A stretch of DNA of 13,430 nt from an uncultured Lachnospira sp. (GTDB lineage: Bacteria; Bacillota; Clostridia; Lachnospirales; Lachnospiraceae). Of the stretch, positions 6,486 to 13,344 are shown one piece after another. Location: NCBI GenBank assembly GCA_947169835.1, contig CAMVRH010000012.1, positions 1-13,430 of the forward strand, written 5' to 3'. Both the position numbers and the translations under genes were made by a program. Below the pieces are notes generated by a model. It made no database searches. It saw nothing but the letters and a program-made list of their open reading frames with translations, and was not told the DNA's origin. Position 1 is the stretch's first letter. The number at the start of each line of letters is the position of its first letter.

Positions 6486-7565
6486 ATGGCTGAGATTAAC
6501 GAAGCTGAATTACAACTAAAATACGATGGTGCCAAAAGATTAATGAATTCTGTTGAATGTTTGAAAAAGAATTCTGACAAGGCAAAAACTATGGAGAGAG
6601 CTGCCAAAAGATTTGAAGATTTAGGTGATTATTCTGACTCGGCAGATATGGCTACTAAATGTAGGACCGAAGCAGAGAAATATTCTAAAACGGAAGATAA
6701 CCTTCCACCTGCGCCAAAGAATCCATTGGATATAAAGAAGCCTAGTAAACTTGCTACATGGCTTTTGAGAATTGCAGTGTTTCTTGTTATCGTTGGAATT
6801 ATTGGTTTCTTCTATACTAGAAAGACCGATCACGGAGCATATTTAAGATCTTCATTCTATGAAAATATTGGTAATCACGAAAAAGCATATAAGATGTTCT
6901 TGCATTTAAAAGATTACAAAGACAGCGAAAAGAGATATATAAATAATAGATATAAGCACGGTATTGAGCAATTTCAGAAAAAGAACTACGAACAGGCCCG
7001 CAATGCTTTTAGAGAAATCAGAGACTACAAAGACAGCGGCGATAAACTTGCGACATGCGAAATCAATCTTTTGAAGAAGACCAAAAAGCATGGTGATATT
7101 TTATTTGGCGAAGCACATTGGATAGTAGCCGAAAAGAAAAAGGATAAAGCCTTTCTAATTAAGACTAAGCCTGTAGCTGGCATCCCATACAACGAAACTG
7201 ATGATAAGGTCACTTGGGAAAGTTGCACTATGAGAGAATATCTAAATTCTGCTTATATGAATGATACTTTCACTGATGCTATGAAAGACAAAATTATAAA
7301 AACTAAAGTTGTAGTCAAAGACAATAAAGAGTTTGGTACAAAAGGTGCCACTACCAAAGATAAATTGTTTATGTTAAATGAAGATCAAGCCTATAAATAT
7401 GGCGAGGACTTAAATATATTTATGAGAGACTACTGGTTGATTGGACCTGGAGAAACTCAAAGAGAAGCTCAGTTTGTATCATATGGACAAGTAAAAGAGG
7501 CTGGATATCCAGTGAATGACAGTTATATAAACACTCGCCCATGTATGTGGGTAAATATAAAGTAA
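6486..7565 (+). CDS. Membrane-anchored protein with DYxDS (TPR-like) repeats and C-terminal DUF6273 domain
   Basis: This 359-residue protein has no assignable enzyme activity. An N-terminal helical region (1-66) carries one repeat of the LGDYSDSADMATKC type (46-59). A single transmembrane helix spans about 91-110. Two further repeats, LKDYKDSEKRY (141-151) and IRDYKDSGDKL (178-188), follow, then a C-terminal domain (about 203-359). That domain has HWIVAE, VTWESCTMREYLN (242-254), YWLIGPG (316-322) and a closing TRPCMWVNI (350-358), which I recognise as the DUF6273 pattern common in Clostridia. Repeats of this kind are short TPR-like helical hairpins that usually mediate protein contacts. AGGAGG precedes the ATG, 14 bp after murG, so it is probably co-transcribed with the wall genes. 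A scaffold or sensor role at the envelope is inference only. Confidence 0.85.
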   Translation: MAEINEAELQLKYDGAKRLMNSVECLKKNSDKAKTMERAAKRFEDLGDYSDSADMATKCRTEAEKYSKTEDNLPPAPKNPLDIKKPSKLATWLLRIAVFLVIVGIIGFFYTRKTDHGAYLRSSFYENIGNHEKAYKMFLHLKDYKDSEKRYINNRYKHGIEQFQKKNYEQARNAFREIRDYKDSGDKLATCEINLLKKTKKHGDILFGEAHWIVAEKKKDKAFLIKTKPVAGIPYNETDDKVTWESCTMREYLNSAYMNDTFTDAMKDKIIKTKVVVKDNKEFGTKGATTKDKLFMLNEDQAYKYGEDLNIFMRDYWLIGPGETQREAQFVSYGQVKEAGYPVNDSYINTRPCMWVNIK

Positions 7566-7620
7566 CAACTCTTTATATACAACGCACAGAAAAAGAGATA
7601 GGGGTCTCACTTAAAATCAT

Positions 7621-7767
7621 TTGCGCGTTCAAAAGGGCAGCAGTTTAGAAATAAGAAAAGAGATTTAGGAAAATATATTTTTCTAAATCTCTTTTCTTAT
7701 TTCTATATTTCGCGAATGCGCGACACGAATATTTTGCGTAGCAAAATATGAGCGCTGCTGTTCTTTT
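7621..7767. other. Structured intergenic element A (multi-hairpin, convergent junction)
   Basis: A 13-bp outer stem pairs AAAAGGGCAGCAG (7631-7643) with CTGCTGTTCTTTT (7755-7767); as plus-strand RNA the two non-Watson-Crick positions are G-U wobbles. It encloses three hairpins. The first is a 22-bp perfect stem (7647-7668 with 7683-7704), extendable to 27 bp. The second is a 5-bp stem with loop AATG (7710-7723). The third is a 9-bp stem with loop GTA (7729-7749). Linkers are TTT, ATATT, CACGA and GAGCG. The right outer arm overlaps the stop codon of the HIT gene. An extra segment, TTGCGCGTTC (7621-7630), can pair fully with 7714-7723 if G-U is allowed. The plan matches the element at 11668-11798. 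It could be a structured RNA, a mobile palindromic element or an elaborate two-way terminator. Confidence 0.6.
7647..7704. terminator. Bidirectional terminator-like long hairpin
   Basis: A perfect 22-bp inverted repeat with a 14-nt centre that can itself pair further, leaving a TATA loop. The left arm is purine-rich and the right arm is T-rich, as in two-way terminators between convergent genes. It lies between the DUF6273 gene (plus) and the HIT gene (minus). The stem is A/T-rich and lacks a clean terminal T run, so termination strength is uncertain. Confidence 0.6.
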
Positions 7768-8176
7768 ATAGCAATCCTTTTGATCTTTCGATGATCTCTT
7801 TAACTGCTGCTTCGTCCAGTTCGCCCGGAGTCCATTGAACCATCTCACCTTTTTCATATCTAGGGATGATGTGGATGTGTAGGTGGAATACTGTCTGTCC
7901 CGCTACTTCTCCATTGTTTTGTAATATATTTATTCCCTCGCACCCCGTTACTTCCTTTAATGCTGTAGCCACTTTCTTTGCTACTTTGTACGCATCTGCA
8001 ATCAAGTCTTCTGGAATTTCAAAAACATTTGCATAGTGTTCTTTAGGGATAACCAACACGTGTCCCTTTGTAGCAGGCGATGCATCAAAGATTACTCTAA
8101 ACTGATCATCCTCATATAATGTGTTTGTCTCAAAAACTCCGTTTGCTAATTTACAAAAAATACAATCATCTTTCAT
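7766..8176 (-). CDS. HIT family nucleotide hydrolase/transferase
   Basis: A 136-residue histidine triad protein, the usual length for the Hint/Fhit-like group, which hydrolyses nucleoside phosphoramidates, AMP-linked adducts or dinucleoside polyphosphates. The catalytic triad is in FHLHIHIIPR (97-106), with His98, His100 and His102. It is preceded by NNGEVAGQTV (87-96), which helps bind the nucleotide phosphate. C5 and C8 form the N-terminal CxxC that binds zinc in part of the family. The ATG at 8176 has AAGGAGA upstream and overlaps the preceding DUF5662 gene by 11 bp, so it is the last gene of the four-gene operon. Its stop codon lies inside the outer stem of structured element A. The substrate cannot be told from the sequence. 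Confidence 0.95.
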   Translation of the reverse strand: MKDDCIFCKLANGVFETNTLYEDDQFRVIFDASPATKGHVLVIPKEHYANVFEIPEDLIADAYKVAKKVATALKEVTGCEGINILQNNGEVAGQTVFHLHIHIIPRYEKGEMVQWTPGELDEAAVKEIIERSKGLL

Positions 8177-8720
8177 TTTTCTTTCTCCTTTTTATTTCTT
8201 GTTTCAAATATTTAAAAGTCTGCTTCTCTCCTTTTTCAGCAAGCATACTTAATAGTTCTTCTAAATCTCCGGCAGTCTCTGGATTCATTATGGATTTTGC
8301 GTGTCTTCCCACGAAATAATTTAGTGGGTCATTATCTTTGTATTCTTTGCCGCGGTAGATTTTGCTGGCCGCCACTCTGTCGCAAAACATCTCAGCAACA
8401 TATCTGTAAGGCATCGACATATATTCATATTTATGTGTCTGTGTGCTTATATCTTGCCAATACTCAAAGTGGTGTTTGTTTCTGCCCTTATGGTGAATCC
8501 ACGCCCTCGAATATCCCAAGTCTTTCCTTTCCCCTTCATTAGGACTTCTGTCTCCCGTGTAATACTTCACTCCAGGAACAAACTCGGTGGGCGAGTACTT
8601 CGAAAGGTCATGCTTTAAACCCTGCCAAAGTATGCCGGCTCTAGCACAGTTCTTAATCACTATATGCCTGTGGCGTGTAACCGTATGCAAATGTCCAAAA
8701 AATTTCCTAAATGTGTTCAT
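8166..8720 (-). CDS. DUF5662 family protein
   Basis: This 184-residue protein is rich in His, Arg and Tyr and has no membrane segment. The order HDLSKYSPTEF (37-47), VKYYTGDRSPNE (51-62) and HHKGRNKHHFEYW (76-88) matches the DUF5662 family, which is frequent in Clostridia and has no proven function. Clustered histidines with nearby aspartates (H37-D38, H76-H77, H83-H84, D114) resemble a metal-binding helical site of the HD-phosphohydrolase kind, but that is inference. The ATG at 8720 has AGGA 7 nt upstream and starts 9 bp after the ATP-grasp gene. Its end overlaps the HIT gene, so all are likely translated from one message. The C-terminus is strongly basic (KRRKKNER). Confidence 0.85.
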   Translation of the reverse strand: MNTFRKFFGHLHTVTRHRHIVIKNCARAGILWQGLKHDLSKYSPTEFVPGVKYYTGDRSPNEGERKDLGYSRAWIHHKGRNKHHFEYWQDISTQTHKYEYMSMPYRYVAEMFCDRVAASKIYRGKEYKDNDPLNYFVGRHAKSIMNPETAGDLEELLSMLAEKGEKQTFKYLKQEIKRRKKNER

Positions 8721-8729
8721 CTATTTTTC

Positions 8730-9488
8730 CTATAAATTATCTACAATATATTTTACAAAAATTTCTACTATATCTATATCCGTATTTTCATAAAGCATCC
8801 TTGCTCCAACCGGATCTTCTATCTCGTTAAATACAGGCTCTCCATTATTATAAATCAAATCGATTCCTGCATAATCTATGCTAATAGTTTTTAGAATCTT
8901 ATCTACTATTTCTTTTTCTTGCTCATCTAGCTCGCACGCTGTTGCTCTTCCGCCCAGCGAATAGTTACTTCTAAAATCATCCGCCTCTCTTAATATAGAA
9001 GAAACAACTTCATTCCCTACTATATAAACTCTTTTGTCTTTTCCTAAGTCTGAGCAAACTTCTTGCTTTATATAGTCCTTTGTCCCAAGCGCTAATATAG
9101 CCTTATCCTCTTCCTCTCTAGAGTTAACCATAAACACTTCGTTTCCTCCGTGCCCATCCACGCTCTTTAAGACAAATGGATAGTCTGTGACCAATTTCAT
9201 CTGAGGAACTTTGCCATCAAAGAATTTGTGCATTCTTCTTTTGTCGTTGCTTAGTTTTGTAATGGTGCTCTCGTTAAAGACTTTGACGCCCTTGTTCTCT
9301 AGGCGCTCCGCTATCTTATAGTCCCTGCTTCTATTGATTGCAAATGAAGGAGTCTCTTTCTTTGGCTCATTTTCCACAAAAACCAACCTGGCCTCGATAT
9401 CATACTTGGCCAGCTCTGCTGTCAGTCTGCTTATAAATGCGATGTTTTTCTCCGCATCTTTTTTGTCGTAAATAATCCAACCCTTCAT
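8730..9488 (-). CDS. ATP-grasp protein, RimK-like (diverged paralogue)
   Basis: A 252-residue ATP-grasp enzyme. This superfamily joins a carboxylate to an amine or thiol through an acyl-phosphate, using ATP and Mg2+. The N-terminal pre-ATP domain (GWIIYDK) resembles the upstream gene's. ATP-grasp landmarks are VLKSVDGHGGNEVF (106-119) with the phosphate-loop glycines, IKQEV (140-144), RVYIVGNEVVSSI (153-165), YAGIDLIY (206-213) and the metal site. At that site the sequence is FNEIEDPVGARMLY (220-233), so the usual E-x-N is E-x-E. This may alter metal binding or mark a subfamily. The ATG at 9488 is 1 bp after the stop of its paralogue. The substrate is unknown; peptide, polyglutamate or small-metabolite ligation are all possible. 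Confidence 0.85.
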   Translation of the reverse strand: MKGWIIYDKKDAEKNIAFISRLTAELAKYDIEARLVFVENEPKKETPSFAINRSRDYKIAERLENKGVKVFNESTITKLSNDKRRMHKFFDGKVPQMKLVTDYPFVLKSVDGHGGNEVFMVNSREEEDKAILALGTKDYIKQEVCSDLGKDKRVYIVGNEVVSSILREADDFRSNYSLGGRATACELDEQEKEIVDKILKTISIDYAGIDLIYNNGEPVFNEIEDPVGARMLYENTDIDIVEIFVKYIVDNL

Positions 9489-9489
9489 A

Positions 9490-10365
9490 TTAAATCTTCT
9501 TCAAAATGTATTTTATAATGGCATCTGCCGCGTCTACACCTGTGCAATCGAAAATATTTTTAAAATGTGCGTTTGAATTTATCTCGCAAAGTAGAGGTTT
9601 ACCATCTTCATTCCAGATAATATCCACTCCGGCAAAATCTAGTCCTAACTTTTCGCACGCCTTAATGGCAATCTTTATTTCTTCACTTGTTGGCTCATAC
9701 TTTTCCATCTGTCCGCCACCAGTCACGTTTGATTTGAAGTCTTCTTCGTTGGTGAGTTTCATAGATGTAATCACTTCACCTCCCACCACCTGCAGTCTAG
9801 CGCTTTTGCCTTTAGAACTTTCTATGTATTCTTGCATAATAAAAGAATTTGGTCCCAGTCTCTCTACTATGGTGGCTGCCTCGTTAAAGTCTTTGGCGAG
9901 GAATACTTCATTTCCAAATGAGCCCTCGTTTTTCTTTATAATCATTGGGTATCCAAGCTTGTTCTCAACTTGAAGTAAGAACGTGTAATCTGGATACTTT
10001 GATTCAAATGTAAGCGGCGCATTAAAAGTGACTGGCATTGGGATGTCAGTGTTTTTAAGTTTAATAAAGGTGAGTGATTTGTCATCACATGCTTCTATGG
10101 CATCAGCATTGTTGAAAACCTTGAATCCTTCTGCCTCTAGCATCCTAGCAAGTTTCACATCCTTATCCCAAAACAACACAAAATCAGGCTTTGACTTCCA
10201 GTCTGTCTCGCCAGTGCTTATAGGAAGAATTGATGTCACTTGATCGTTTGTGAGTTTTCGTAGTTTAACATCATTTTCCTTTGCCGCGGACAATATCCAG
10301 TTGTAAATCTCGTCAAATTTTGGGCTCTCCAAAAATCCGTTGACGATTAACCAGCCTTGTTTCAT
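9490..10365 (-). CDS. ATP-grasp protein, RimK-like ligase
   Basis: A 291-residue ATP-grasp ligase and the first gene of the leftward four-gene operon. The N-terminal domain (about 1-95) starts with KQGWLIVNGF. The ATP-grasp fold shows YPMIIKKNEGSFGNEVFL (139-156) with the ATP-binding lysines and glycine loop, FIMQEYIES (175-183), RLQVVGGEVITSM (190-202), FAGVDIIW (244-251) and the metal-binding CEINSNAHF (260-268), where E261 and N263 fit the canonical E-x-N. The closest familiar group is RimK/LysX-type alpha-amino-acid ligases. No LysW-like carrier, ribosomal protein or precursor peptide gene is nearby to suggest the acceptor. GTAGGAGA precedes the ATG at 10365. Its tandem paralogue follows after 1 bp, so the two may work in sequence or as a heteromer. 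Confidence 0.9.
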   Translation of the reverse strand: MKQGWLIVNGFLESPKFDEIYNWILSAAKENDVKLRKLTNDQVTSILPISTGETDWKSKPDFVLFWDKDVKLARMLEAEGFKVFNNADAIEACDDKSLTFIKLKNTDIPMPVTFNAPLTFESKYPDYTFLLQVENKLGYPMIIKKNEGSFGNEVFLAKDFNEAATIVERLGPNSFIMQEYIESSKGKSARLQVVGGEVITSMKLTNEEDFKSNVTGGGQMEKYEPTSEEIKIAIKACEKLGLDFAGVDIIWNEDGKPLLCEINSNAHFKNIFDCTGVDAADAIIKYILKKI

Positions 10366-10396
10366 GCATATTTCTCCTACATATATTCTGCTTTTA

Positions 10397-10425
10397 ATTC
10401 TATCAAATACATATTAGAATTCAAA
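10397..10425 (-). promoter_or_regulatory. Candidate promoter of the ATP-grasp/DUF5662/HIT operon
   Basis: On the minus strand TTTGAA (10425-10420) and TAGAAT (10402-10397) are separated by 17 bp; TTGAAT with a 16-bp spacer is the alternative reading. The match to sigma-A consensus is moderate. It is the only reasonable promoter seen upstream of the four closely packed genes. Confidence 0.5.
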
Positions 10426-10465
10426 CTTTTTTCACATTTTGTTCCTTTATATTTAGTGTATATGA

Positions 10466-10474
10466 TGATATAAT
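10466..10474 (+). promoter_or_regulatory. Extended -10 promoter of the anchored-protein/GtrA pair
   Basis: TGATATAAT (10466-10474) combines a perfect TATAAT with an upstream TG, an extended -10 element. No good -35 box lies at 17 bp (TTTATA at 10446-10451), which fits extended -10 promoters that do not need one. The expected start is near 10481, about 29 nt before the ATG at 10510. Confidence 0.6.
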
Positions 10475-10509
10475 TGTCGATAGTTAATTAAGAATTGCGG
10501 GAGGTAATT

Positions 10510-11199
10510 ATGGATAATATTAACAACACACAGGCTCCTGAGCCAAAGGAAAACAACAAGAAAATCATTATCATCGCATCAATAGCAATCGCAGTTTTGG
10601 TTGCTCTATTTGTGATTCTAGGAGTATCACTAGGTTGGTTCGGCGGTAAGGGCGCTTCAAAAGATGACAGCAAGAAGGGACAAATTCCTGCTACTATCAA
10701 TATTGAAGAAACTAAAGGCTCTGAAGCTAAAACTAAAAAGATAGACATTAGCGTAAGAGATGTAAAGTTCGGCGATAAGATTAAAAAAGTTAAAAAGTTT
10801 GAAAAAACACAGGAAGATACTTTAGCTAGTCCTTCTCAAGCTTCAACTAAAGATGGCTACACTTATCTAACTTATACATTTTCTCCAAAAGCTAAGTTCT
10901 TTGGCGTAAAACCTACAAAGGCTCCATCTGGTGCTTTACTACAGTATGTGTTTAAAGATAAGAAGCTATTTGACATTAGAATTCAATTTGGCGATCTCAA
11001 AAAATCAGAGATAGATAAGCTATCAAAGAACTTGAGAGATAAATACGGAAAACCAACATTTACTATCAAATATTCTAACGATTCTTGGAGAGATACTTGG
11101 AGAACAGCTGCTAAAAATCCTGATAAGCAGACTATATTGGCTCTAAACTATAGTCCTCAAGGTGGCACTGTTATATCTTATGAATCAGTAGGAAGATAG
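10510..11199 (+). CDS. Unknown single-pass membrane-anchored extracellular protein
   Basis: I do not recognise this 229-residue protein. A short polar N-terminus (1-18) precedes one strong hydrophobic helix (about 19-44, KKIIIIASIAIAVLVALFVI then LGVSLGWF). A low-complexity linker rich in Lys, Ser, Gly and Thr (45-80) follows, then a basic extracellular domain (80-229). That domain has alternating hydrophobic residues suggesting beta strands and ends in LALNYSPQGGTVISYESVGR. There is no cysteine, so it is not a lipoprotein. A TTG at 10495 could extend it by five residues, but GGGAGG directly before the ATG at 10510 fixes the start there. Its stop lies 3 bp before the gtrA-like ATG, so the two are co-expressed. 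A role in envelope glycosylation is suggested only by that neighbour. Confidence 0.8.
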   Translation: MDNINNTQAPEPKENNKKIIIIASIAIAVLVALFVILGVSLGWFGGKGASKDDSKKGQIPATINIEETKGSEAKTKKIDISVRDVKFGDKIKKVKKFEKTQEDTLASPSQASTKDGYTYLTYTFSPKAKFFGVKPTKAPSGALLQYVFKDKKLFDIRIQFGDLKKSEIDKLSKNLRDKYGKPTFTIKYSNDSWRDTWRTAAKNPDKQTILALNYSPQGGTVISYESVGR

Positions 11200-11202
11200 T
11201 TG

Positions 11203-11670
11203 ATGAAGAAAATTATCGATCTTTTAAAAAAATATATCTTCAATAAAGAGATGATGATGTATATCATCATGGGCATTTTGGCCACAGTTGTAAACTTAAT
11301 TGTTTATGCTATTAGCGTAAGAGCCCTTGCAGCATTTATGACTAACAAGCCTCTTTATATAGGTATTGCTAAGTTAATTGCTTGGGTTGTGGCTGTTCTA
11401 TTTGCTTTCTTTACAAACAAGATTTGGGTATTTGAAAGTAAATCCTGGGCCCCTAAAGTGTTTTGGCGAGAACTGATAAGCTTTATAGGTGCTAGGGCAC
11501 TGACTGGACTGTTAGAAGTATTTGGAACTCCGTTCCTTGTTAGTATCGGTCTAGACCAAAAGTTGTTCGGTGTTGAAGGTATGTGGGCAGTAATAATTAT
11601 TAGTTTTATTGTTATTGTTGCCAATTATGTATTTAGTAAATTACTTATATTTACAAAAAAAGAAACATAG
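11203..11670 (+). CDS. GtrA-like membrane protein (polyprenyl-linked sugar flippase family)
   Basis: A 155-residue protein with four transmembrane segments at about 20-42, 54-76, 88-114 and 127-150, the standard GtrA layout. Family landmarks are the MGILATVVNLIVY first helix, FAFFTNKIWVFESK at the end of helix two, and the closing NYVFSKLLIF. GtrA proteins are thought to move undecaprenyl-phosphate-linked sugars to the outer face, where they decorate glycans or teichoic acids. They usually work with a GtrB-type glycosyltransferase, which is absent here. The ATG at 11203 is chosen; a TTG at 11200 directly before it is an alternative start. AGGA lies in the end of the upstream gene. The stop codon TAG (11668-11670) forms the start of the outer stem of structured element B. 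Confidence 0.9.
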   Translation: MKKIIDLLKKYIFNKEMMMYIIMGILATVVNLIVYAISVRALAAFMTNKPLYIGIAKLIAWVVAVLFAFFTNKIWVFESKSWAPKVFWRELISFIGARALTGLLEVFGTPFLVSIGLDQKLFGVEGMWAVIIISFIVIVANYVFSKLLIFTKKET

Positions 11671-11798
11671 CAACGAGAATACTCAGAGACCTTCGGTCTC
11701 TTTCGTGGAGGCAGTCGCCTCATACTCAATAAAAAAGAAACAGAAACAAATAAAATTTGTTTCTGTTTCTTTTTTATTTCCTATAATTCTCGTTGCTA
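11668..11798. other. Structured intergenic element B (multi-hairpin, convergent junction)
   Basis: A perfect 13-bp inverted repeat, TAGCAACGAGAAT (11668-11680) with ATTCTCGTTGCTA (11786-11798), encloses three perfect hairpins. The first is a 7-bp stem (AGAGACC/GGTCTCT, 11685-11701), whose loop is TTC on plus and GAA on minus. The second is a 5-bp stem GAGGC/GCCTC with a 4-nt loop (11708-11721). The third is a 23-bp A/T-rich stem (11728-11778). Read on the minus strand, the linkers are TATAGGA, GAGTAT, CACGAA and GAGT. Stem order, lengths and the CACGAA and TGAG linker sequences match element A (7631-7767) read on the plus strand, while stem sequences differ. It lies between convergent gtrA-like and tRNA-Lys genes and overlaps the gtrA-like stop codon. 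Confidence 0.65.
11728..11778. terminator. Bidirectional terminator hairpin between gtrA-like gene and tRNA-Lys
   Basis: A perfect 23-bp stem around a TAAAA loop. The left arm begins AATAAAAAAG and the right arm ends CTTTTTTATT, so each strand gives a stem with a terminal U-rich run. It probably stops transcripts of the gtrA-like gene (plus) and of tRNA-Lys (minus). Confidence 0.8.
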
Positions 11799-11849
11799 AA
11801 CAAAGTAAAGCACCACCCCAAGCTAAAAGTGCTCGAAGCGGTACCCGCA

Positions 11850-11922
11850 TCCGCCTCCAGGGGCTCGAACCCTGGACACCCTGATTAAGAGTCAGGTGCT
11901 CTTCCAACTGAGCTAGAGGCGG
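11850..11922 (-). tRNA. tRNA-Lys (anticodon CUU)
   Basis: A complete 73-nt cloverleaf on the minus strand. The acceptor stem is CCGCCTC/GAGGCGG with discriminator A at 11850. The D arm is GCTCAGTTGGAAGAGC. The anticodon arm has loop CTCTTAA, giving anticodon CUU for AAG lysine codons. The T arm is CAGGG/CCCTG around TTCGAGC. The 3' CCA is not encoded (TGC follows), so it must be added after transcription. The C1-G72 first pair is less common than G1-C72. A separate promoter lies upstream and element B lies 51 nt downstream. Confidence 0.95.
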
Positions 11923-11931
11923 TTATATGAT

Positions 11932-11946
11932 GTTCACAACGTGAAC
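11932..11946. promoter_or_regulatory. Palindrome in the tRNA-Lys leader
   Basis: GTTCACAACGTGAAC is a perfect 6-bp inverted repeat with a 3-nt centre. It starts at about +2 of the predicted tRNA-Lys transcript and ends 9 nt before the mature tRNA. It could be an operator at the start site or a leader hairpin removed by RNase P. Confidence 0.45.
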
Positions 11947-11953
11947 GAGAAAT

Positions 11954-11982
11954 ATTATAATACAGTTTTTTCTCTTTTTCAA
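11954..11982 (-). promoter_or_regulatory. Promoter of tRNA-Lys
   Basis: On the minus strand TTGAAA (11982-11977) and a perfect TATAAT (11959-11954) are separated by 17 bp. The predicted start near 11947 gives a 25-nt leader before the mature tRNA 5' end at 11922. Confidence 0.75.
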
Positions 11983-12034
11983 GAATTATTTTTGCTTTTT
12001 TCTAGTAGTTTTGTCCTATTTTTCTAATTCATTC

Positions 12035-12063
12035 TTGATATTAAACCCAAATAAATTTATACT
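12035..12063 (+). promoter_or_regulatory. Promoter of the AI-2E family transporter gene
   Basis: TTGATA (12035-12040) and TATACT (12058-12063) are separated by 17 bp. The expected start is near 12070, leaving a 24-nt leader that contains the GGAGG ribosome binding site at about 12083-12087. Confidence 0.7.
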
Positions 12064-12093
12064 TATTTATAGAACGATTGAACGGAGGTTATT

Positions 12094-13344
12094 ATGAGTA
12101 AGCATAATAAATTTAAATCTAGCAGTAAATATTTTACTATTTCTGCTTATGCCTTAGGAACATTGCTGATTGTAGGCATTGCATTTAAACTTATTTTCTT
12201 CTGGAAGGACTCATCTAGTTTCTTTGGAAATTTAGTTTCTACTCTAGAACCATTTTTCCTAGGAATCTTAATTGCATTCTTGATTAACCCTCTAGTTAAC
12301 TGGATGCGTAGGGTCTTGTTTGGAAAGTTAATTTCTATTAAGAAGCCAGGCTTGAACAACGCTTTATCAATCACTCTTTCTTACATTTTAGTTTTAGCAG
12401 CTATTATCGCCGCTATATTCTTCATTGTTCCAAGCCTTGTCAATACAGCGTATGATCTTGTAAAACAAATAGACGGCGCAAGAGACTCTGTATTAAAACT
12501 AGCTACTTGGGTCGATAAGAAAATTGATGTTGGTTTGGTAGGTACTGTTAATAAGTATTTAGACGCTAGCTATCTAAAGGGATTGGTTGCAGATTATGCG
12601 AAAGATATTACTTCTACTGTTATTTCAACAGGTTCAGCTGTTATAGGAGCTGTTATTAATATTGTTATCGCATTTATCGTTTCAATTTACCTTATCATTG
12701 ATAAGAAAGTTCAAACTAGAAGTATCAAAAGAGTTATATATGCATTTTTTGAAGAGCACAACGCTAAAAGAATTTGCTACGTTGGTAAGAGAGCTGTTTC
12801 TATTTTCAGTAATTTCTTCGACGGCAAAATGTTAGACTCTTTGGTTATGGGCATTATAACCTATGTTTCAATGCTAATTATGGGAATCTTCCTCAAAGGT
12901 TTTTGGGCTAATGCGTTATTGATAGCCATTGTTATTGGTGTCACAAACATGATTCCTTACTTTGGACCGTTCATTGGTGCCGTTCCTAGTATATTAATAC
13001 TATTAGTTGCTTCAGGATGGCAAGGTGCAGTGGTATTTGCAATATTTATCATTGTAATTATGCAGGTAGACGGAAACGTTATTGGACCAAAGATTTTGGG
13101 TGGTTCAACTGGACTTAGACCATTGTGGATTATTTTCGCCATTACTATTGGTGGATGGGCATTTGGCGTAGTTGGAATGCTTATCGGTGTTCCTATTGTA
13201 GCTACTATCACTGGTCTTCTAAATGATGCAGTAGAAATCAAACTGGATAGAAAAGGAATTAAGATGCCATCACTTGATAGGCCTACGTCGGAAGAAAAAC
13301 TGGCAGAGCTAAAAGAGTTGGCTAAAAAACCTGACGAAGATTAA
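12094..13344 (+). CDS. AI-2E family transporter (PerM/YtvI-like membrane protein)
   Basis: A 416-residue polytopic membrane protein. Hydrophobic segments lie at about 13-35, 51-69, 90-113, 180-202, 247-266, 272-289, 297-322 and 343-376, the layout of the AI-2E transporter family. Between the third and fourth segments is the usual extracytoplasmic helical loop (about 114-179). Family landmarks are KMLDSLVMGIITY (245-257), IGVTNMIPYFGPFIGAVPS (281-299), QVDGNVIGPKILG (324-336) and VGMLIGVPIVATI (360-372). One member (TqsA) was linked to autoinducer-2 export, while others are sodium/proton antiporters or peptidoglycan-related, so the cargo is open. The C-terminal tail is charged and cytoplasmic. 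A strong GGAGG precedes the ATG. It stands alone with its own promoter and terminator. Confidence 0.92.
   Translation: MSKHNKFKSSSKYFTISAYALGTLLIVGIAFKLIFFWKDSSSFFGNLVSTLEPFFLGILIAFLINPLVNWMRRVLFGKLISIKKPGLNNALSITLSYILVLAAIIAAIFFIVPSLVNTAYDLVKQIDGARDSVLKLATWVDKKIDVGLVGTVNKYLDASYLKGLVADYAKDITSTVISTGSAVIGAVINIVIAFIVSIYLIIDKKVQTRSIKRVIYAFFEEHNAKRICYVGKRAVSIFSNFFDGKMLDSLVMGIITYVSMLIMGIFLKGFWANALLIAIVIGVTNMIPYFGPFIGAVPSILILLVASGWQGAVVFAIFIIVIMQVDGNVIGPKILGGSTGLRPLWIIFAITIGGWAFGVVGMLIGVPIVATITGLLNDAVEIKLDRKGIKMPSLDRPTSEEKLAELKELAKKPDED

Follow-up and report, generated by a model that had tools for sequence, protein, structure and literature searches.

REP and BIME sequences are intergenic palindromes that lie behind genes, are associated with Y1 transposases (RAYT), and have a strand-specific structure of one or two hairpins. 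Integron attC sites are characterized by paired core-site boxes and an integrase. Small interspersed repeats with a strong predicted fold are present in Streptococcus pneumoniae, where the sections of Croucher et al. (2011, PMC3049150) on these repeats distinguish SPRITE, BOX, and RUP; SPRITE is terminator-like and reportedly most strongly enriched between convergent genes, and BOX is modular, with its inner modules in tandem. The Clostridiales-1 motif (Rfam RF01699) is listed by Weinberg et al. (2010, PMC2864571) as a probable RNA, not cis-regulatory, from Clostridiales and the human gut. An unnamed entry may stand in supplementary candidate-RNA lists (e.g. PMC8040213), and no description of elements of the type reported here, or of Clostridiales-1 as mobile, was found in the parts of the literature covered.

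The window, a stretch of 13,430 nucleotides from an uncultured Lachnospira sp., contains two elements, A and B, that by their sequence appear to belong to two related families of short repeats interspersed in Lachnospira genomes. The elements are probably MITE- or SPRITE-like repeats, selected for structure mainly on one strand and acting as portable terminators. The multi-hairpin plan proposed for both in a first-pass annotation was reproduced by direct reading and folding.

Element A is read on the plus strand. Its 5′ box, GCGCGTTCAAAAGGGCAG (7623..7640), shares its last ten bases with the 5′ strand of the outer arm (7631-7643), which pairs in sequence and fold with the 3′ strand (7755-7767); the two mismatches of this outer stem become G-U pairs on the plus strand, as the annotation had held. 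The element had been taken to begin at the outer arm; the plan within that interval stands, and the conserved box lies partly outside it. Hairpin 1 (7646-7705) is a long, A/T-rich, terminator-like inverted repeat with 30-nt arms that are 97% complementary. It is followed by hairpin 2, TCGCG-AATG-CGCGA (7710-7723), identified by folding and by covariation at alignment columns 3-18 and 8-13, and by hairpin 3 (7724-7752), identified by family covariation in the upper stem and in the pairs flanking the GA loop. Hairpin 3 consists of CACGAA (7724-7729), the stem TATTTTGC-GTA-GCAAAATA (7730-7748) with its GTA triloop, and TGAG (7749-7752), and contains a tandem GA/GA internal loop (7727-7728/7750-7751).

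The 3′ outer arm of A overlaps the stop codon (7766-7768) of a convergent HIT-domain, HinT-like gene on the minus strand (7766..8176; Pfam HIT, 99.2 bits), whose score against the HinT model is below that model's cut-off. Upstream of A, on the same strand, is a 359-aa gene with a DUF6273 domain (6486..7565, plus). Immediately 5′ of A on the plus strand is the remnant of a native terminator, AAAAAGAGATAGGGGTCTCACTTAAAATCATT (7590..7622), comprising its 5′ arm and loop. In genome G010 this junction has a complete terminator, GGAGATAGGGTCTCACTTAAAATCGTTCGTACCCTATCTC, whose 5′ arm and loop the remnant resembles with small differences. Two adjacent genes for RimK-like ATP-grasp proteins lie on the minus strand of the window at 8730-10365.

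Element B is read on the minus strand, and the 5′ box of the A family is not present in it. The 5′ strand of its outer arm (11786-11798) pairs in sequence and fold with the 3′ strand (11668-11680), which starts at the TAG stop (11668-11670) of a convergent gene to which a family search assigns a GtrA domain. Hairpin 1 (11728-11778) is a perfect, A/T-rich, terminator-like inverted repeat with arms 11728-11751/11755-11778. Hairpin 2, GAGGC-GACT-GCCTC (11708-11721), was identified by folding and is compensated in G018, where it reads GAGAC-GACT-GTCTC. Hairpin 3 (11682-11707), comprising CACGAA (11702-11707) and AGAGACC-GAA-GGTCTCT (11685-11701), has a GAA/GA internal loop and a GAA triloop. B is preceded on its own strand by a tRNA gene (11850..11922, minus; Rfam tRNA, 64.7 bits), which has its own terminator-like site (11846-11808) ahead of B.

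Both elements fold strongly, A on the plus strand with -65.9 kcal/mol (z -11.15) and B on the minus strand with -63.6 kcal/mol (z -10.95), and for neither was any of 200 dinucleotide shuffles as good. Most of this energy comes from the long hairpin 1; the module of hairpins 2 and 3 on its own does not exceed shuffles for A (z -0.35) and exceeds them modestly for B (z -2.70). The opposite strands fold about equally well (z -10.59 for A and -12.65 for B), so that energy alone cannot pick the strand. The case above chance rests on recurrence and covariation, not on energy. In both A and B, the first hairpin contains a stem with G-C pairs and a U-rich tail after it, as in an intrinsic terminator, and scores as a terminator-like site in three registers, on the plus strand only; the region 7400-12100 has 13 such rows against a shuffle mean of 3.0. 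Hairpin 1 of A is terminator-like for transcripts of the upstream DUF6273 gene, and that of B for transcripts of the GtrA gene, the direction opposite to the strand on which B is read. Transcript ending at the first hairpins would be the likeliest effect in the cell, because A and B occupy the spots of plain terminators in relatives.

Recurrence was assessed in the source assembly (1.08 Mb in 190 contigs, 79% complete) and in related genomes. A blastn search with A located two loci besides A itself, and all three have in common, on the upstream side, the box CGCGTTyAAAAGrGCAG, a search for which revealed two more loci. The exact 17-base pattern has four matches in the source genome, every one inside an element. 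At up to three mismatches it has 10 matches, against 4 for the reversed pattern; the four exact matches and one with two mismatches are elements, one other that was inspected is not, and the remaining four, all on the minus strand, have no match to R1 on their contigs at E<=10. R1 is a covariance model of the A module trained on five copies, and R2 is a model built on B and four relatives; the models were based on the module, since MAFFT applied to whole elements misaligns B and the long hairpins. In the source genome, R1 recovered its five training copies and, on C86, a rearranged sixth one (E 6e-8), found no further place better than E 1, and missed B at E<=10. R2 recovered B and one copy on C89. 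Rearranged A-type copies (L020 1225-1345; L070, L071, L073) have the CGCG hairpin adjoining the terminator hairpin, with a palindrome like CATGAATAnTTTGCGAAGCAAAnTATGAATG set apart. Some 3′ halves of B-type elements, either hairpins 2 and 3 or hairpin 3 and the arm, are tandemly repeated at a spacing of roughly 60-80 bp (L185 1501-1614, L191 1501-1621, L194 1338-1547, L196 from 1501).

Among 79 genomes, the source genome included, R1 matches 25 at E<=0.1 and nine at 1e-6 or better, all nine belonging to one genus. Matches to R2 are present in 17 of the 79, all within the 23 genomes of that genus (G000-G022) and in none of the other 56. When named genomes were scanned with a pattern, four stretches were recovered from three records, Lachnospira sp. 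UBA3790 (two stretches), an uncultured Lachnospira, and a Lachnospiraceae MAG, and three of the four named matches indicate that the genus is probably Lachnospira. Further copies with covarying stems, a prediction of the first-pass annotation, are thereby at hand: six clear A-type and two B-type copies in the source genome and many in relatives. They are short and dispersed, about 130-145 bp in length, with inverted ends that pair and no long reading frame of their own, as is characteristic of MITEs.

The alignment of A modules contains 20 of the 24 listed, 19 of them distinct, and includes the five R1 training copies and two wide-like copies from G019. In it, 95.0% of 323 cells are paired and 9 of 17 pairs are changed on both sides, and the pairing, double changes, and covariation score were reached by 0 of 500 shuffles; in slid controls, the proportion of paired cells drops to 20-57%. 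The B alignment (35 matches, 31 distinct) was fitted to the model and leans towards it; 92.8% of its 456 cells are paired and 11 of 15 pairs have double changes, again with 0 of 500 shuffles as high. The seven pairs of the B hairpin 3 upper stem are standard in all 31 distinct rows, so that this stem is 100% paired, and five of the seven are changed on both sides. The count of further pair types is not above shuffles in either family (399 of 500 as high for A, 240 of 500 for B). The annotation had read changing stems with fixed linkers as the mark of selected structure, and the covariation agrees with it. The pairs next to the GA letters also covary, as U-A/C-G and A-U/U-A in A and as C-G/U-A in B, and since these covarying pairs lie outside the GA letters, CACGAA and TGAG form the opposite sides of a G.A internal loop in hairpin 3. 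They are conserved as proposed, and are not the single-stranded linkers for which they had been taken. The loop has the form GA/GA, with GAA/GA in its place in B and in some of the A copies, and is missing or paired through in four copies (G020_59k, G015_C17, G018_C19, G018_C21). A GNA triloop, noted earlier for A and B, is usual in the families without being universal, with TCT in C36 and TTT or AAA in others.

These results bear on the simplest alternative, that A and B are ordinary terminators that evolved locally with decorative hairpins and resemble each other by chance. The first hairpins do score as terminators, and stem turnover is also seen among the plain terminators of relatives at the corresponding junctions. 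The many copies that share a conserved module, and the conserved 5′ box, speak against it, however, and the covariation, unmatched in 500 shuffles for both A and B, refutes it as far as sequence can, leaving this alternative very improbable. Among the plain terminators at the HIT-gene junction, stems change and loops stay similar.

The strand on which the structure is selected was approached through mismatches. In folds made without G-U pairs, the lone mismatches inside helices were tallied as G.T and A.C, giving 17:8 in A (21 elements), 6:3 in B (14), 10:2 in Clostridiales-1 (12), and 0:0 in wide forms (6). The sum over A, B, and Clostridiales-1 is 33:13 (p 0.0045, for copies that are related and not independent), and the excess is not significant for A alone (p 0.11) or B alone (p 0.51). 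The G.T excess, together with GA and GNA loops that are present on one strand only, favours selection of the fold on the strand read here, plus for A and minus for B, either as RNA or as single-stranded DNA.

The first-pass annotation had treated A and B as one family. With filters off, R1 was run over 15 B loci (40 kb) and gave 35 matches at E<=10. In 14 of these loci, B modules are matched on the correct strand, by 18 matches in all (6.8-17.5 bits, E 0.015-8.2); the remaining 17 lie off the modules, at up to 13.1 bits. The sole locus with no match on its module, L207, lacks the GA loop. R2 returned nine matches when run over 22 A-type and wide loci, six on modules in six loci, the best of these with 17.3 bits (E 0.025), and three elsewhere. 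The matches are individually weak and together consistent with A and B families that are distant relatives; a common plan and a weak sequence likeness remain of the single family, which is better described as two related ones. Weaker R1 matches, some from outside the genus, have a longer, wide form in common, with the order GCGCGTTTCTACrAGCGGTGC, a long hairpin with a AGCTTGCT loop, GCGCGACAGCGCG, CATGAGCATG...ATGCGAATG, and GCACCGC. The wide forms of G029 (L040, L075, L076, L215, L216) have, by eye, a stretch like AAACTGGAATTT at each end, the two being direct repeats, and 14 bases are identical between the end stretches of L215.

Orthologous junctions in relatives differ in whether an element is present. 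At the HIT-gene junction (24 loci found, 10 opened), a whole A is present in G000 and G002, a plain terminator with only the 3′ third of A in G020, and ordinary terminators in G010, G015, G018, and G021; no such element is present in G008 and G014, and G009 is ambiguous. The typA junction, compared in 10 genomes, has a plain terminator in G000, G002, G015, G017, and G021, an A-type element beginning at the stop codon in G010 and G020, an inverted element with an extra module in G018, and no element in G008, with G014 ambiguous. The 5′ box of the element encodes the final codons and stop of typA in G010 and G020 and of ung in G020 (L059 near 1884, L057 near 1421, and L030 near 1417). At the GtrA junction (8 loci read of 19), B-type elements are present in G000, G015 (two in tandem), G018, and G017, and plain terminators in G002, G010, G020, and G021. 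In the latter four, the final GtrA codons form the first arm of the terminator, and B occupies the place of the second arm. Much of the native terminator is lost where elements were gained at these three junctions, so that simple insertion is not the full explanation.

A tree built on gene pieces of 10 genomes, not all pieces being present, pairs G010 with G020 and G000 with G002. By this grouping, the plus-oriented typA element was gained recently on the G010/G020 branch, and the patchy B site requires several gains, losses, or exchanges. Between orthologues of the two sister pairs, the hairpin-1 region has identities of 1.0, 1.0, 1.0, 0.98, and 0.98. In other orthologues (L032 and L034 at the groEL locus; L060 and L036), hairpin 1 is replaced wholesale, with identities of 0.74 and 0.70 against 0.98 and 0.94 for the module. 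The typA first hairpin is not common to any other compared copy, the best non-orthologous identity being 0.79.

Old elements could also have been spread by homologous recombination between terminators, or by allele import from related species, with no transposition. Such exchange would fit native terminators that are replaced and not cleanly split, a near-same B in G000 and G015 with none in G002, the sister of G000, and the lack of a sure target duplication for A or B. The loci, however, have a common module, box, and plan while their first hairpins and flanks differ, which leaves little homology for recombination; the element in G018 is inverted; and the related Clostridiales-1 duplicates its target. 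Spread by recombination is considered quite improbable.

The positions of the elements were surveyed in 32 A-type and 16 B-type rows, merged by hand, with some starts approximate where no box or arm was found. The A-type rows comprise 16 loci, 14 with an upstream ORF; in nine, a same-strand gene ends at -10 to +57 nt from the element start, and in 7 of the 14 its stop codon is no more than 10 nt away. In the other 5 of the 14, the closest ORF upstream has the opposite orientation. G015_C15, an orthologue of a counted A-type locus, has a script distance of +94. The B-type rows comprise 10 loci, nine with an upstream ORF, and in five of these nine the distance from a same-strand stop is between -11 and +8 nt. 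Convergent junctions, to which the first-pass annotation gave weight, are not what sets the sites apart; where an upstream gene is known, about half of the loci or more follow a same-strand stop. Family searches identified neighbours as S15 (rpsO), PNPase (pnp), GroEL, TypA, and Ung, and as genes with HIT and GtrA domains. The neighbours are unrelated to each other, comprising rpsO, pnp, groEL, typA, ung, secreted-looking proteins, and a tRNA.

Location after stop codons on the same strand is also expected of a host-encoded, immobile RNA, either a structured 3′-UTR or a trans-acting RNA placed at chosen mRNA 3′ ends for stability or protein binding. The strong covariation, the fixed GA loop and triloop, and the nearly unchanged elements of sister-pair orthologues (0.98-1.0 in the hairpin-1 region) are in keeping with such an RNA. 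It is harder to reconcile with unrelated neighbour genes, with the same gene being free of the element in close relatives, with the inverted typA copy in G018, and with the placement of hairpins 2 and 3 downstream of a terminator-like hairpin, so that they would be transcribed by read-through only. A host-encoded RNA is therefore considered unlikely.

At gathering level, Rfam detects only the tRNA in the window, and RF01699 has no match in the source genome at E<=10. The model does match three wide forms on the same strand, two in G029 and one in G019, with 33.3, 31.3, and 25.7 bits against a cut-off of 48; this gathering score is reached by neither the window copies nor the wide forms. Wide loci L038, L043, and L046 and four source-genome loci have no match at E 0.5. 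The motif had been called undescribed, which holds for the window copies, without an Rfam match, and less so for wide A forms, which reach Clostridiales-1 below threshold. Matches of the A model to Clostridiales-1 loci are weak and on both strands and do not demonstrate a direct link. Sub-threshold matches in source-genome loci to psRNA14 at L016 (E 0.31) and to BSnc120 on the opposite strand at L015 (E 0.023, 26.9 bits vs 114) were taken as chance.

Clostridiales-1 is present in 113 of 200 family genomes at E<=0.01 and above the cut-off in 86 of 200, with at most 13 matches scored per genome. Copies in G091 and in G164 are near-identical at different places, start with TGAT, and mostly end with ATCA. 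With at most one mismatch allowed, a TGAT-type end pattern has 190 occurrences in G091 and 109 in G247, against 0 in the control; halving the 190 suggests about 95 copies in G091. Target duplication was assessed at 40 loci (L112-L151), of which 10 have no end pair within the limits, leaving 30 distinct elements. An exact duplication of 5-6 bp flanks 23 of the 30, compared with 39 of 870 mixed-pair controls, and each duplication starts with T and ends with A. Clostridiales-1 behaves as a MITE in its inverted ends, copy number, and target duplications. The ends of A and B differ from TGAT...ATCA, and a duplication flush with them measures 0 bases for A and 4 bases (AACA, which may be chance) for B; no sure duplication was found for either, other junctions having been judged by eye.

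A Y1 transposase was considered as the mover of A and B and rejected for the genus, being absent from all nine genus genomes with strong A copies (G000 79% and G017 59% complete). G014, a member of the genus without strong A copies, has one. In C29 of G080 (L160), a Clostridiales-1 copy abuts a Y1 transposase match with an internal stop; a link between the two was set aside, as the copy has both ends and G164 and G127 carry Clostridiales-1 without a Y1 match. The ends listed for G247 include a single inverted pair, on C64, with 1.9 kb between its members. It encloses a long ORF, which we take to encode a pectinase-like enzyme, and with no recognised transposase inside, the pair was rejected as an autonomous Clostridiales-1 element. 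Two viral stretches were likewise dismissed as autonomous elements between TGAT ends, each having one end only, and a plasmid match as a source of the mover, with no transposase among nine annotated genes nearby.

The first-pass annotation had left the choice between a structured RNA and a mobile motif. The structure is conserved, elements were gained at junctions that have plain terminators in relatives, and their spread is the step that we infer. As portable terminators, the elements, whose inverted-repeat ends pair as an outer stem, would end transcripts at the first hairpin, which in both A and B resembles an intrinsic terminator. They would spread as non-autonomous elements of the MITE, SPRITE, or BOX kind, probably related to Clostridiales-1, and would survive where hairpin 1 takes over the job of the native terminator. 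Selection would act on the fold of the strand read here, as RNA or single-stranded DNA, and hairpins 2 and 3 and the outer stem may be kept as a copying mark, which is the simplest view, or as a protein site. A broader and rather unlikely proposal is a Lachnospiraceae-wide superfamily of miniature mobile elements that includes Clostridiales-1 and whose strand-specific fold, as RNA or single-stranded DNA, is recognised for copying. Its Lachnospira branch would have acquired a terminator as hairpin 1 and would now be a mobile, portable terminator, landing at stop codons and displacing the native one, with its stems rebuilt in the process into new inverted repeats.

Local evolution is the usual assumption for terminators; here, a repeat family seems to bring its own, which appears to substitute for the native terminator behind genes such as rpsO, pnp, groEL, and typA. 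Clostridiales-1 is listed as a probable RNA in Rfam and has features of a mobile element; why its structure is conserved has to be explained anew, and a remark is called for in annotation pipelines that treat it as an RNA gene. The hairpin with covarying stems and a G.A loop provides a ready bait for a putative binder.

Among the known systems, A and B are unlikely to be integron attC sites, as their location at ordinary chromosomal gene junctions speaks against it. They differ from REP and BIME in having a four-way plan and no Y1 transposase in nine genus genomes. Like SPRITE, BOX, and RUP, they are small, interspersed, and strongly folding; the terminator-like hairpin 1 recalls SPRITE, and the tandem 3′ half of some B-type elements recalls BOX; the comparison is by description, those repeats belong to other bacteria, and a G.A loop or GNA triloop is not mentioned in the sections on them. 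In Clostridiales-1, unlike A and B, hairpin 3 is not preceded by a CGCG hairpin and is followed by a further one, the ends are TGAT...ATCA and target duplications are present, and the first hairpin of the G091 and G164 copies read has no U tract. Clostridiales-1 has in common with A and B an outer stem around a long hairpin and more hairpins, a hairpin with a UGAG...CGAA internal loop, and a dispersed occurrence in many copies per genome in Lachnospiraceae, on the same strand. The GCUUGC loop of its hairpin 1 also occurs in wide A forms and some B forms, the window copies having other loops. The A and B families are probably related to Clostridiales-1.
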